From the NCBI GenBank assembly GCA_011524395.1, contig WTKN01000370.1, positions 17,208-64,862 of the forward strand: a stretch of 47,655 nucleotides of DNA, read 5' to 3'. The notes under the pieces were generated by a model, which saw only the letters and a program-made list of their open reading frames with translations, made no database searches and was not told where the DNA came from. The position numbers and the translations under genes are program-made. The stretch is from Moorena sp. SS36440bin_2. GTDB lineage: Bacteria > Cyanobacteriota > Cyanobacteriia > Cyanobacteriales > Coleofasciculaceae. Shown one piece after another: positions 21,489 to 47,655 of the stretch; positions within the stretch are counted from its first letter, which is position 1; every line of letters starts with the position of its first letter.

Positions 21489-22649
21489 GGCTCGGCAATG
21501 GGTGGGTGTGGAATTTCACATCTGGAATGATAGGATAAATTGGTGACTAACCGCCATTGCTCCGCGAGTTAGTTAGATGGGATTCACAATGCCTTAGTTA
21601 GATTGGGTTTTCCTGGGGATTAACTTATTCCATTACTCCGATTGCCCTTGGATGATTGAGTCATTAGTCTACAAGTTTCTTAGTTCCATCTATAGATGGA
21701 ACTAATTAAGACCTCGAAAGTTTAATGACTAATGACTAATCAATCATGTCTGGTGGTACTATGGTAAACTTGATAAAACTTTTGGGGTTTCCTGTAAATG
21801 TGGTAAACTCTCAGACTGTTGAGGATCTGGTGGACTAATATAGACTAGTAAGTTGAGCAATATTGTAATAGTAAGCGCCTGAAAAACTTTCTTAAACACG
21901 AGCCACACTCCTCATTCCTAATATTTAGTCTTGGTGAAACAATCGGAAACGATGCTAGTTAACTGAGATACGAACTTTCTAAAAATTGATACACCCGTGA
22001 AGGTAATTAACTCTACCAGTTTATTTAAGCAGCCATATAAGTGCCAAGTTATATGTTCCGCCTTAGTGACTGGCACAGTGCAAAGGGTTGCTCCTAAATC
22101 ATTCTGTGTAATTTAATACATTAGGGGTAGCCGAGATTAGAACCAAAGCAGGAGTTTGCTAGTCGCTACAATGTAAAGAAAAACCAATCTAGCAGCCACC
22201 TTGGGTCAGTACCCCACTCTTGCCTAGACAGCACTCCCTAGCGTAGTCAAGCAAGATCGCTGACCAGCCTAAGACCTCTGAAGCCTAGGTTATCGGCAAG
22301 GGTGAAAGTTCCTAGCTTAGGATCGAATGGCAGTCCGAAGCTGATTAACCAGATAGTTAAACAGTCCTACAAGGGGTAAGACAGTGCCATCTGAAGAATG
22401 AAGAATTTAAAATTCTAAATTCGCGCATTCCGCATTCTACATTCTGACAGGATAGTACCTACCGATAACAAGCCGCGAGGCAAACATGACCTCTTGCTTC
22501 GATAGGGGCTTGAGGCTGTTAACAGGAACGGGTATGAACTGCATCTGTTCTCCCCACATTGATCCAAGACGGTTTTAACCGCCCTTTTCCTTTGTTTTTC
22601 CTCCCCAGTCGCCCATACACGGGGTTTGCAAATTTCACGCTTATTTTTT
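21489..22649. other. 1.16-kb intergenic region between lpxD and clpP
   Basis: No protein gene is seen. A 22-bp perfect palindrome lies at 21682-21703. The stretch 22060-22560 is richer in G and C than the flanks and contains many short self-complementary segments, such as TCCTAGCTTAGGA near 22311-22323 and GACGGTTTTAACCGCCC near 22569-22585 followed by TTTTCC. It does not show the signature motifs of tmRNA, RNase P RNA, SRP RNA or a cobalamin riboswitch. It may hold an unrecognised structured RNA or a long clpP leader. Confidence 0.45.
21682..21703. repeat. 22-bp perfect palindrome
   Basis: AGTTCCATCTA followed by TAGATGGAACT with no spacer, lying in the lpxD-clpP spacer. It resembles in design the perfect palindromes at 13466, 23387 and 38180, but the arms differ in sequence. 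Confidence 0.85.
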
Positions 22650-30072: not shown

Positions 30073-31010
30073 ATTCGGCTTCTCCTGTTGCAGATAACTC
30101 TTGGTTTTACTGGTGAAGTAAGCGGTTGGGTTTCTCTAGAAACAACTTTATTTTGACATACTTCCCACGAATATAATTGGCGGGTTTCTCTCCATCCGGA
30201 ACGATGATGAGATACAATCGAAGGCTAAAATAAACCTGAGCCACCAGAGTAGGAATACTCCAGATCCTTTTTTTGTTGGCTCTGGCGACTAAAATACCAT
30301 TTACTTGAGTAGTCGAGCCGCCATGAGCACCAAAAATAGATTCCAAGAATTTAAAGGATTAGCAATAATTGTAGCTCACTCCTCGTATCCCCAGCCCTAA
30401 AGGGTAGGGGTTGGCTTGAAATCATTTTTGGTTAACTTAACATGGAATCAAGCGGGTTTGTCTATTCCTTGTTAAAGATTAAAATAGCTTAATAGTCTTT
30501 TATGTTCATTGCTTGAGAGTAAGGCATGCATTAAAAGCGAGTTTGAGTTGATCAACGCTGCTTGTGTGATTGATTACTTTTTTTATGCATTGTTTTTATG
30601 CATTGTCTTGATGCAGAACGCGAATTTGGGAAATCCCCTCAGGTCGGCGCTACATCCCTTAATTGATTTAACTAGGTATCCTATACCTCCGCGGGCCCAT
30701 TTCTCCTGCTTGCCAGCAATGGTGCTGTAGTCTTTCAGAGATGGTGTTTGGGGGTATGGTTACTCTATAGTTATTTGGAAACTTAGATTCTACTAGTATT
30801 GCTATCGATGGCAATGGAGTAAGAATCCGAAAGCTCCCCCAAGTTAAAAATAGGGGATTGTGAGCGAATGTTGCTCATGGGGTTAAAAACCGGGTACTAG
30901 CAACGTTGACAGTAGGATTTTACTCACACGCTTTGTGGCAGTTTAAACACACTACTAACAAACTTGGCTCAAAAAGAGCTGTGGCGTTCCCCTTAGTCTT
31001 CTTAGCTGTG

Positions 31011-31430
31011 ACACTCCCCGCCCGCTTATGAGCGGGGATTCTTAGTTCTACGACATGCCTTACAATTAGTTATCCAGCAAAGGCAATATTTAAGCCAAAT
31101 ACCCGTTTAAAAACGCGCATATCGAGCCTAATTTAACTAATCGAGCGTGGGCTTATCTCCCTAAGCGTTGGGTCTCCCCCGTTCCCGTGTGCCCCACGGT
31201 ACGTTTGTATTTCAATTTGCTATTTTACTGGTTTTCGGTATCCGTTAAGATCCATGCGTTTTGGCGAGGTTTTTCGCTCCTCGTGTACTAGTATCGCTTT
31301 ACGTCGTTGTTTTTAAATTGGCAGTACCGACGAATCCTACCTGTACTAGGCTACATGTTTATTCTAACATACTCTACTTAAAAGCCGTCGAACGAAGGAC
31401 GGGGCTTGAGACCCAAAATTTTGGGTCACC
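31011..31430 (-). ncRNA. Probable orphan HEARO / IscB omega RNA
   Basis: Read on the minus strand, the segment starts with a GACCCAAAATTTTGGGTC palindrome (31427-31410) and CAAGCCCCGTCCTTCG. It continues to the core GTACCGTGGGGCACACGGGA then ACGGGGGAGACCC, AACGCTTAGGGAGATAAGCCC (31202-31149), and ends with hairpin CCCGCTCATAAGCGGG and GGGGAGTGTCAC (31036-31012). From memory, this order matches HEARO RNAs, later shown to be the omega RNAs that guide IscB nucleases and normally sit just upstream of iscB. Here no iscB or other HNH frame lies in the following 900 bp. It is thus a stand-alone guide RNA gene or the remnant of a lost IscB element. The identification is by pattern recall and needs a covariance-model search. 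Confidence 0.6.
31410..31427. repeat. 18-bp perfect palindrome at the 5' end of the omega RNA candidate
   Basis: GACCCAAAATTTTGGGTC, fully self-complementary, immediately upstream (minus-strand sense) of CAAGCCCCGTCC. In omega RNAs a hairpin of this kind lies near the guide end of the transcript. Confidence 0.8.
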
Positions 31431-31743
31431 GACTTGGCTATCTATAGGATACAGCAGGAGAAACCCTACTGCTGATAAACATCGGCGTGGCTAAAGCCTT
31501 CTGGTTCAAGAAGCAAGCATTTTGGTAGGTGTCTACAGGTTCCACATACCGATCATTGTGACATACTAATCCCTGTAAGTGCTTGGCACTAAGCATGAAT
31601 TTGGGAAAAAAAACTGCCAACCTGCCAACCTGCCATCGGTCGCAGTCAGAATAACTCAAAAATAGGCTATTGCTGTAACCAAAAGTGGTAAGACACTCAA
31701 TAGACTGATAAAGCTGATTTTAAATCGTAAGGGAGAAAAGCCA

Positions 31744-45787: not shown

Positions 45788-45817
45788 CTCACATCAAATC
45801 AAAGATTATGATGTGAG
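45788..45817. other. Hairpin overlapping the tnpB stop (transposon right-end candidate)
   Basis: CTCACATCA (45788-45796) pairs with TGATGTGAG (45809-45817) and encloses the TAA stop of tnpB (45806-45808). Subterminal imperfect hairpins of this sort mark the ends of IS200/IS605 elements, and in TnpB loci the omega RNA ends at this boundary. Confidence 0.6.
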
Positions 45818-45850
45818 CTTCTCAACTTCACAATTGAGACTTGCTGTTCC

Positions 45851-45879
45851 TCGCCTACGGCCTCCGCTTTCGCGAACGA
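45851..45879. repeat. Dispersed GC-rich repeat inside the tnpB C-terminal tail
   Basis: TCGCCTACGGCCTCCGCTTT then CGCGAACGA. It matches the core words of the family at 38430-38530 and 26761-26888 (CCTACGGCC, GCTTT, CGCGAACG). In frame it encodes the Arg/Gly-rich RESGGRRRG of the TnpB tail. Confidence 0.6.
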
Positions 45880-46609
45880 TATCCTGTAACGATTTCCCAC
45901 AGCCATTGAGCGGCAGTCCAACCGCCATTAATCCACGATTCAAAATATTGATACCACTGTTCCAATCACGGTCAATTTTGACTTCACAACTGGAACAATG
46001 ATGAACTCTGTCACTCAAGTCTTTCTCTACTCGTTTTCCACAGTTAAAACACTCAATACTTGTCCGACGTGGATCAACTTTCTGGACTAACAAACCGCGT
46101 TTGACCGCTACTGCTTGTAATATTTCCAGAAATGACCCCCACGCTGCATCATATATTGATTTTGCTAACTTAGTCCGAGCGAGTCCTTTGATGTTTAAAT
46201 CTTCATGAGCAATCAGGTCGTACTTACTACATAACCAATGGGCAACTTGATAGTTAAATTCCTGGCGGCAACGGGTTAAATGAAGGTGCAATAGAGCTAC
46301 TTTTTGTTTGGCTTTCTGCCAGTTTTTAGAACCCTTAACACGACGCGACATTACTCGTTGAGCTTGAGCCAGTCTGTTTTGAGCCTTTCTGTAGAGCTGC
46401 GGAATCGCAATAGCTTCACCGTCTGATGTGGTTAAAAACTTCTCTAGACCAACATCGATGCCAACAGCCGATCTGACCAAATCCACAGGTAACAGCTTAG
46501 GTACGGTATCATCAAGCATGGAAAAACAAGCATACCAGCCGTCTGCTTTCTTAACGATAGTGCATTGTTTCAATGTGAAACCGTCCGGTATCTGTCGGTG
46601 CATCACCAC

Positions 46610-46748
46610 GGGTGCATCTCATCTTTGTAAAAAAGAAGGGAAGTGCCGGAAGTGTCGGAAGTGTGGGGATTTTAGAGAGGGTGGGTAGTCTAGGCACTGT
46701 CGGAATTTTATTAGAATTTTGGTCTAATTGCAAAAGTGAGATGCACCC
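46610..46748. mobile_element. 139-bp MITE inserted in tnpB
   Basis: The element starts GGGTGCATCTCA (46610-46621) and ends TGAGATGCACCC (46737-46748): perfect 12-bp terminal inverted repeats, extending imperfectly to about 21 bp (TCTTTGTAA versus CTTTTGCAA inside). It is flanked by CATCACCAC at 46601-46609 and 46749-46757, a perfect 9-bp target duplication. There is no coding capacity; the interior has short GGAAGTGYC repeats. A non-autonomous element needs a transposase from a full-length relative elsewhere in the genome. Confidence 0.93.
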
Positions 46749-47231
46749 CATCACCACAGGCATTGACCCAATGCGACTTAGCTTTAAAACACCATCAATC
46801 AGGTGTGCCCCCGCTCTTGAATTGTTGACTCTGGGAAACACAAATGACCGGAGATCTCCAGGCTTTTTGAAGCGAGGTCTACCGCCTCGCTTACCACGCT
46901 TCACCGGTTTTCGCCATCTATCCCATGCTTTGTTAAGCCGTTTTAGGTTAACCTGCTGAGTCTCTGCATAGATTTGTTTGTACTCAGGGAATAGCCGCTT
47001 AGTTTCTTTAAGGGCTGCCTGTTGGGTGTAGTAGTTAACTGCTTCTGGTATTTCACCGATCGGCTCACTAATCAAGCTACATCTATCAATCGGTGAACGA
47101 GTCCGATTGAGCCAATCAAGCCGTTGCCCTAGAGCATAATTCCAGTGACGGCGCAACAGTTCTAGCCACTTTTCCATGATGGCTATCTGTTCGGCAGTTG
47201 GCTTGATTCTATAGCAGTAAGTTAGGTGCAT

Positions 47232-47655
47232 TTGATGAGTCTACCACTTATTGTAAAAACTTTCAAAGGTAATTACACAATAGAGAACAGGTCAGTTTAT
47301 AGACTTACCGCACATAAGCGTGTTAGTTACAAAATACCGCCGAAAAACCATAACAGATTAGATTCTGATCAGGTTGAAACAGATTTGTTCTGATACCTGT
47401 GTCAAATGGCAATGCAATCTAGTAGAGTTCAATGGCGAAAATGACCATGTTCACGCTTCTTGTTGACCTTAACCCGCGCATTGGCTCCGGTTAAACTGAT
47501 CCCCAATATCAAGACAGTGACCAGTAGATTGATTCGTTTTCGTTGCCTCTTGTGGAGGCGTGACTATTGAACAGCTAAAAAGTTATGTCCACGCACCAAA
47601 AAACCCCGTCAGGCAATTCCCAAGGGGCGGTGTGGGTCACCTGCGTCCGCACTTT
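47232..47655. other. Region upstream of tnpB at the window edge
   Basis: No gene is seen in these 424 bp. The left end of the tnpB element should lie just upstream of its start, around 47232-47330, but I cannot find the exact boundary. The final 60 bases are GC-rich (ACCCCGTCAGGCAATTCCC). Confidence 0.4.

Follow-up and report, generated by a model that had tools for sequence, protein, structure and literature searches.

A tnpB-less IS200/IS605-type element of Moorena sp. with a structured RNA built on a TnpB omega-RNA-like scaffold

A short stretch of DNA without a protein gene in Moorena sp. SS36440bin_2 raises the question of what it encodes and how it reached its place. It lies in the window, the whole stretch of 47,655 nucleotides that was analysed (contig WTKN01000370.1, positions 17,208 to 64,862). 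A preliminary description had read positions 31011-31430 as a stand-alone omega RNA of the HEARO/IscB kind that could serve a nuclease encoded elsewhere. The blocks quoted there (a palindrome, CAAGCCCCGTCC, GTACCGTGGGGCACACGGGA, AACGGGGGAGACCC, TTAGGGAGATAAGCCC, CCCGCTCATAAGCGGG and GGGAGTGTCA) are all present on the minus strand inside these coordinates. The reported lack of an HNH or RuvC frame nearby also holds, since 30073-31743 contains no ORF of at least 90 aa (ATG, GTG or TTG start), and iscB is thus absent downstream of the RNA. In contrast, the family assignment did not survive the covariance-model search proposed as its check. Rfam gave no match in 30900-31600 at E<=10 and, at gathering thresholds, nothing but two tRNAs in the whole window. 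The RF02033 search of the own genome returned 18 HEARO matches, 13 of them above the cut-off and none at the locus, and 12 of these 18 loci, inspected by eye, lack the motifs of the window element. The sequence matches of the locus are tnpB/OrfB_IS605 elements. Of the original proposal there remains the form, an apparent guide RNA with no adjoining nuclease gene, and not the IscB family. The sole HEARO match in the window, at 22205-22490 on the plus strand, is weak (45.6 bits against a cut-off of 83), has no adjoining iscB-like ORF of at least 150 aa and is probably decayed.

Matches to the element were found in 23 of 37 genomes (its own included), many of them to the ends only. The nucleotide search of the own genome gave 29 matches, many to the left end (query 53-101) or the right end (419-472), and these two stretches also flank tnpB genes; the other matches are tnpB-less elements resembling that of the window. 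The congener G001 carries a 98% full-length copy at the same site together with many full copies at 79-92%, and G003 carries several copies, further copies in both genomes falling within 79-92%. Copies at 79-98% in these two genomes, and compensatory changes in favour of a structure, place the element far beyond chance. The window site is empty in G002 and G003, and comparison with these empty sites set the element at 31008-31424 (minus strand, 417 bp), close to the coordinates first given. The locus is a small mobile element of the IS200/IS605 type, free of protein genes and without tnpB, and a structured non-coding RNA of ~347 nt stands in tnpB's place. Its parts, with the adjoining target and flank, are the following.

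31008-31424, minus strand: whole element; no protein gene, the longest run without a stop being 65 codons (opposite strand) or 30 codons (same strand).
31425-31428, minus strand: target tetranucleotide TGAC, adjoining the left end (it would be the TAM for a TnpB acting here), seen at empty sites and before 29 of 31 copies (exceptions L127 and L131).
31413-31424, minus strand: left-end terminal palindrome CCAAAATTTTGG, read in the sequence and aligned among copies.
31405-31409, minus strand: internal guide TCAAG, covarying with the target; its TCAA can pair with the TTGA of the common target.
31385-31402, minus strand: left-end hairpin CCGTCC-TTCGTTC-GACGG, common to some tnpB elements.
31361-31366, minus strand: -10-like box TAGAAT, from alignment A1 of 22 copies.
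31228-31354, minus strand: 5' RNA domain of 127 nt with five helices (model R1 match at C175:48435-48561).
31008-31202, minus strand: 3' RNA domain of 195 nt, a TnpB omega-RNA-like scaffold; the corresponding part of tnpB elements measures 143 nt and lacks ~50 nt of its stem-loops.
31181-31202, minus strand: core hairpin GTAC-CGTG-GGGCA-CACG-GGAAC, common to the 3' end of tnpB genes.
31015-31038, minus strand: right-end hairpin TCCCCG...CGGGGA, then GTGTCA, common to tnpB elements.
30992-31007, minus strand: presumed guide, the first 16 nt of the right flank, AGCTAAGAAGACTAAG (a length that we assume from TnpB work); TGAC plus this guide matches the G002 empty site exactly.

The G002 empty site reads GTCGGTGAC-AAACCTGA-CAGCTAAG, compared with GTCGGTGAC-element-CAGCTAAG at the occupied site, and at the occupied junction the window copy lacks 8 bp of the G002 sequence. 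The G003 empty site reads GTGAG at the target. An A follows GTGTCA in 29 of the 31 copies; its place is taken by a C in the window copy and in the orthologous copy of G001, giving GTGTCAC and not GTGTCAA. The GTGTCAC end, the 8 missing bp and the GTGAG of G003 together indicate that the history of the window copy was not clean. The G002 site contains TGAC at another position as well (CCTGAC, directly followed by AGCTAAG), which suggests insertion at that point and a small deletion afterwards. A sister copy in G001, L107, has clean empty sites: TTTGAC abuts the right flank in G000, G002 and G003. The sequence in G003 is ATAATCCTGAG, from which G000 and G002 deviate by one or two letters. This copy is a precise insertion without target duplication. 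With TGAC preceding nearly all copies and L107 clean, the element was found to insert 3' of a fixed short target and to leave no duplication of it. The ends lie 405-693 bp apart in the 31 copies, which is too short for tnpB, and no tnpB ORF was found within 1.5 kb at seven distant tnpB-less loci. The element belongs to a lineage with many copies, and congeners differ in which sites are occupied. A phage origin was rejected, there being no phage match and no match of the RNA pattern among viral contigs, as was a plasmid origin, for which a single partial match was found (Allocoleopsis franciscana, 21% of the query). Some copies are themselves interrupted: L020 (C18) and L023 (C126) of the own genome carry a small insert of 107-108 bp, whose start, within the core hairpin after GTACCGTGGGG, is identical in these two and in L024 (C264), and L128 and L129 of G002 show gaps of ~105 bp at the same place.

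IS200/IS605 elements, which transpose as single strands, find their target through base pairing with an internal guide close to the left hairpin. The corresponding agreement of guide and target is visible here. Among 78 distinct left ends gathered with a strict pattern, which admits TTAC, TGAC or TAAC targets only and collects related rather than independent copies (with a few double counts possible at locus edges), TGAC goes with CAAGC in 52 and TTAC with AAAGC in 26, and crossed combinations were not seen. A looser pattern added two exceptions, L105 (= L077; TGAC with AAAG) and L029 on C203 of the own genome (TTAT with AAAG); as this pattern also counts out-of-register frames, its in-register rows and exceptions alone were used. 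Subterminal hairpins and a target-matching internal guide are thus present, with L105/L077 and C203 as exceptions. The target follows the element type: TGAC in type A, the kind found in the window, TTAC in three of four left ends of type B (see later in the text), and both among tnpB elements. Of 20 tnpB loci in G001, 18 have the core hairpin, 19 the right end and 6 the standard left end. The ends and target of the element are those of tnpB (IS1341-like) elements in the same genome. This genome also contains 14 matches to Y1, one of which adjoins a subfamily tnpB in an element with the same right end; the Y1 gene on C69 has an apparent in-frame stop near the N terminus. Elsewhere in the window, a degraded IS605-type element occupies 45806-47466. 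It retains two tnpB-like frames on the minus strand (45806-46609 and 46551-47231) and, at ~47320-47466, a fragment of a Y1 tnpA interrupted by stops.

The RNA was analysed with three alignments. Alignment A1 holds 22 of the 31 copies (L119, L121, L127-L131, L020 and L023 were dropped for inserts, partial left ends or near-duplication), and RNAalifold proposed for it 98 pairs, 15 of them with compensatory change. The 5' domain was aligned separately in 21 sequences, including those of G022, G017 and G016 (alignment A2: 19 of 26 found plus L137 and L141; L104, L106, L113, L115, L119, L133 and L143 dropped). Its 27 pairs are formed in 98.1% of cells, 14 of the pairs show two-sided changes, and slid versions of the structure pair in 26-48%. 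On four of the five measures these values were equalled by none of 500 shuffles, and on the fifth, 'further pair types', by 42 of 500; related rows can beat shuffles without any structure, though rarely on pair count. No match to the 5' domain was found in the tnpB loci examined. For the core hairpin, in rows chosen among located loci (alignment A3; 13 tnpB-less and 8 tnpB), three of seven pairs change on both sides, a change that mostly splits tnpB from type A rows and therefore counts few events. A -10-like box precedes the RNA in the 22 copies (TATAAT in 8, TAGAAT in 8, variants in 6); a consensus scan for a full sigma-70 promoter found none in the window copy, shuffles giving a mean of 1.5.

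The RNA is not confined to this genus or to one form. A scan of the phylum with model R1 found it in at least 7 of 386 genomes, 9 candidates being scored per listed genome. A second tnpB-less family, type B, has a different 5' domain and is represented in the own genome by L025/L033 (C403), L029/L043 (C203), L028 (C313), L037 (C53) and L044 (C381), and outside it by L136/L082 and L140/L102 of G015; in its proposed fold, built from seven sequences without a shuffle control, 10 of 25 pairs change on both sides. A third type is apparently represented by L134 of G020. In L146 and L153 (G073) and in L147 (G051; identical DNA to L237, Anabaena sp. 4-3), a divergent ORF of 46 aa separates the left end from the RNA. 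Its Pfam matches, to DUF6364, DUF6290 and NikA-like proteins, fall below the cut-off, and it resembles a ribbon-helix-helix protein.

The 3' domain ties the element to TnpB. It is common to the 3' ends of tnpB elements and aligns with them over the GGGCA-loop hairpin, AACGCTTnnGGAGA, AAG..GTCG and AAGAATCCCCG..CGGGGAGTGTCAA. In the tnpB gene L062, 22 of 22 bases of GTACCGTGGGGCACACGGGAAC lie inside the 3' coding end, where the subfamily codes for S-T-V-G-H-T-G-T, and 29 of 30 subfamily tnpB loci keep the core hairpin paired, with differing stems. At tnpB 3' ends the core-hairpin residues change in pairs (e.g. L026, L036 and L040: TVGHT, TTGHV, TLGHN), and the protein sequence there is apparently constrained by the pairing demands of the RNA structure. 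The RNA of the element keeps this 3'-end scaffold and adds to it a covarying 5' domain and further stem-loops.

Whether a matching TnpB is at hand was judged from the genes of each genome. Subfamily tnpB (E<=1e-60) is present in all 14 carrier genomes searched; further carriers, beyond these 14, are G009, G011, Crocosphaera, Cyanothece and Calothrix. The own genome has 106 OrfB_IS605 genes and the 13 other carriers between 7 and 150, so that co-occurrence with tnpB is a weak test. In the own genome, L026 and L031 combine a TTGAC target with an open frame. At most two subfamily tnpB were viewed per distant genome, of 1-17 counted, and on this basis agreement between the scaffolds of RNA and local tnpB appears mixed. 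It is clear in G022, where the tnpB-less RNA and both viewed tnpB share ATCGTGGGGCGCACGA and GGAGCGTCAA. In G031 the RNA shares GTCGGGCGGAC and GAGCGTCAA with one of two viewed tnpB, and in G015 it agrees with one of two. The TAGGGCATA form is common to RNA and tnpB in G051 and G073 (three of four tnpB viewed), and it is also found in the own tnpB on C99 and in G020, whose RNA has TGGGGCACA. RNA and viewed tnpB disagree in G016, G020, G087 and G351, and the comparison in G017 is ambiguous. The top OrfB_IS605 matches of other genomes belong to other subfamilies, in which no common scaffold was seen by eye. In one G031 region (C1:2740630-2747193) the RNA (2743437-2743560) lies between two subfamily tnpB, ~2 kb from each, and that at 2745997 (L204) shares its scaffold form. 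Truncated tnpB genes were also encountered: all five viewed in G001 and G003 (L223-L227) have the same 24-nt repeat, which shifts the frame, at the Glu codon of VAYEDL, presumably the catalytic residue, and further truncated matches end near residue 271-275. A nuclease-dead tnpB lineage may be spreading.

TnpB omega-RNAs combine a right-end scaffold with a guide derived from the flank and a TAM equal to the target site, and in the HEARO/IscB omega RNA the guide is on the opposite side. By TnpB logic, the guide of the window element would sit 3' of the right-end hairpin, at 30992-31007, and not on the 5' side (31430-31450) where it had been placed. When four congener genomes were searched for TGAC followed by the window guide, the empty site of G002 was the only exact match, and the flank of L107 likewise matches its empty site beside the TAM. 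Other sites found had two or three mismatches; a reversed-pattern control gave one per genome, which puts these mismatch sites at chance level. The occupied junction in the carriers G000 and G001 reads TCAC, as would be expected for self-protection.

We therefore favour, with a probability of about 0.6, a non-autonomous IS200/IS605-type element that carries an enlarged TnpB omega-RNA and uses TnpB and TnpA in trans; the mixed scaffold agreement lowered our confidence from 0.66 to this value. Loading of the RNA into TnpB is inferred from sequence, and the TnpB would probably be borrowed from related transposons elsewhere in the genome. On this model, a Y1 TnpA acting in trans would peel the element and paste it behind TTGAC. 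Transcription would continue past the right end, and the transcribed flank would become the guide. A TnpB encoded elsewhere would load this RNA and cut the empty sister site beside TGAC, and repair from the occupied copy would restore the element. TnpB would thus be exploited by an element that does not encode it, and the enlarged RNA could serve as a stable or competitive guide in the absence of tnpB mRNA. The 5' domain is not explained by TnpB guidance alone; it may stabilise the RNA, replace a processing step that depends on tnpB mRNA, or recruit something else. A bolder and rather unlikely version sees a class of selfish, guide-RNA-only transposons, whose new RNA domains (at least two unlike 5' types) would outcompete the guides of tnpB or partly replace functions of the protein, the element driving its own retention with a borrowed nuclease, or even with another partner or alone.

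Other readings have to be weighed against this one. Haloarchaeal palindrome-associated transposable elements (PATEs), described from Haloquadratum walsbyi, are transposase-free, IS605-related mobile repeats, and in one of their families a portion of the sequence coding for the TnpB C terminus is retained (PMC3119063). The window element could likewise be moved by TnpA in trans without its RNA guiding TnpB at all, the structure serving single-stranded DNA transposition or another RNA role and the scaffold being merely inherited. Covariation cannot separate RNA from single-stranded DNA, and the mixed agreement with local tnpB fits such inheritance. However, the structure extends far past the end hairpins, a -10-like box lies upstream of it, and the divergent tnpB of G022 has a matching scaffold and right end; we regard this alternative as unlikely, if still worth keeping in mind.

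A protein-independent RNA riding on IS605 ends, through IStron-like splicing or as some other ribozyme, would suit a large covarying domain in which the protein gene is absent, and IStrons, group I introns joined to insertion sequences, offer a precedent (PMC4227781). The window copy has no Rfam match at E<=10, although a divergent group I intron could be missed by this search, and a type B copy gave a single sRNA match (E 3.8) far under the gathering score; this reading is improbable. Least credible by far is the orphan HEARO/IscB omega RNA: HEARO RNAs do occur in the genome, but none of their matches falls at the locus.

The TnpB guides known so far arise as by-products of the tnpB gene. Under the favoured reading, a lineage devoid of tnpB has retained its guide RNA and made it larger, and its many copies would draw their guides from different flanks. 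Two testable questions follow: does TnpB serve, in trans, elements that parasitise its own transposons, and why should an omega-RNA grow once its protein gene is missing? TnpB engineering could moreover make use of a natural scaffold of larger size. Among the titles and abstract openings of open-licence PMC literature, we found no tnpB-less element with an enlarged TnpB guide RNA.

Several known systems share features with the element. With the TnpB omega-RNA/reRNA of IS200/IS605 and IS607 elements (a subject of PMC10278001 and PMC11061315, for example) it has in common the right-end scaffold, the flank guide and a TAM that is the target site. However, that RNA comes with tnpB, whereas the window element lacks the gene and adds a 127-nt 5' domain and ~50 nt of 3' stem-loops. 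The HEARO/IscB omega RNA (Rfam RF02033) is similarly a non-coding guide RNA at a transposon end, but its covariance model does not match here. IStrons also join a structured RNA to an insertion sequence, as outlined in PMC4227781; for the window copy, no intron match was found in Rfam at E<=10. The nearest known kind of element appears to be the PATEs, which, going by their descriptions in PMC3119063, resemble it in their near-terminal palindromes, absence of target duplication, 4-5 bp targeting sequence and many copies. PATEs are also attacked by small mobile repeats (PMC3119063), comparable to the 107-108 bp inserts in copies of the own genome. Compared with these descriptions, the window element is cyanobacterial and carries a large covarying RNA behind a promoter-like box, a kind of RNA that they do not mention.
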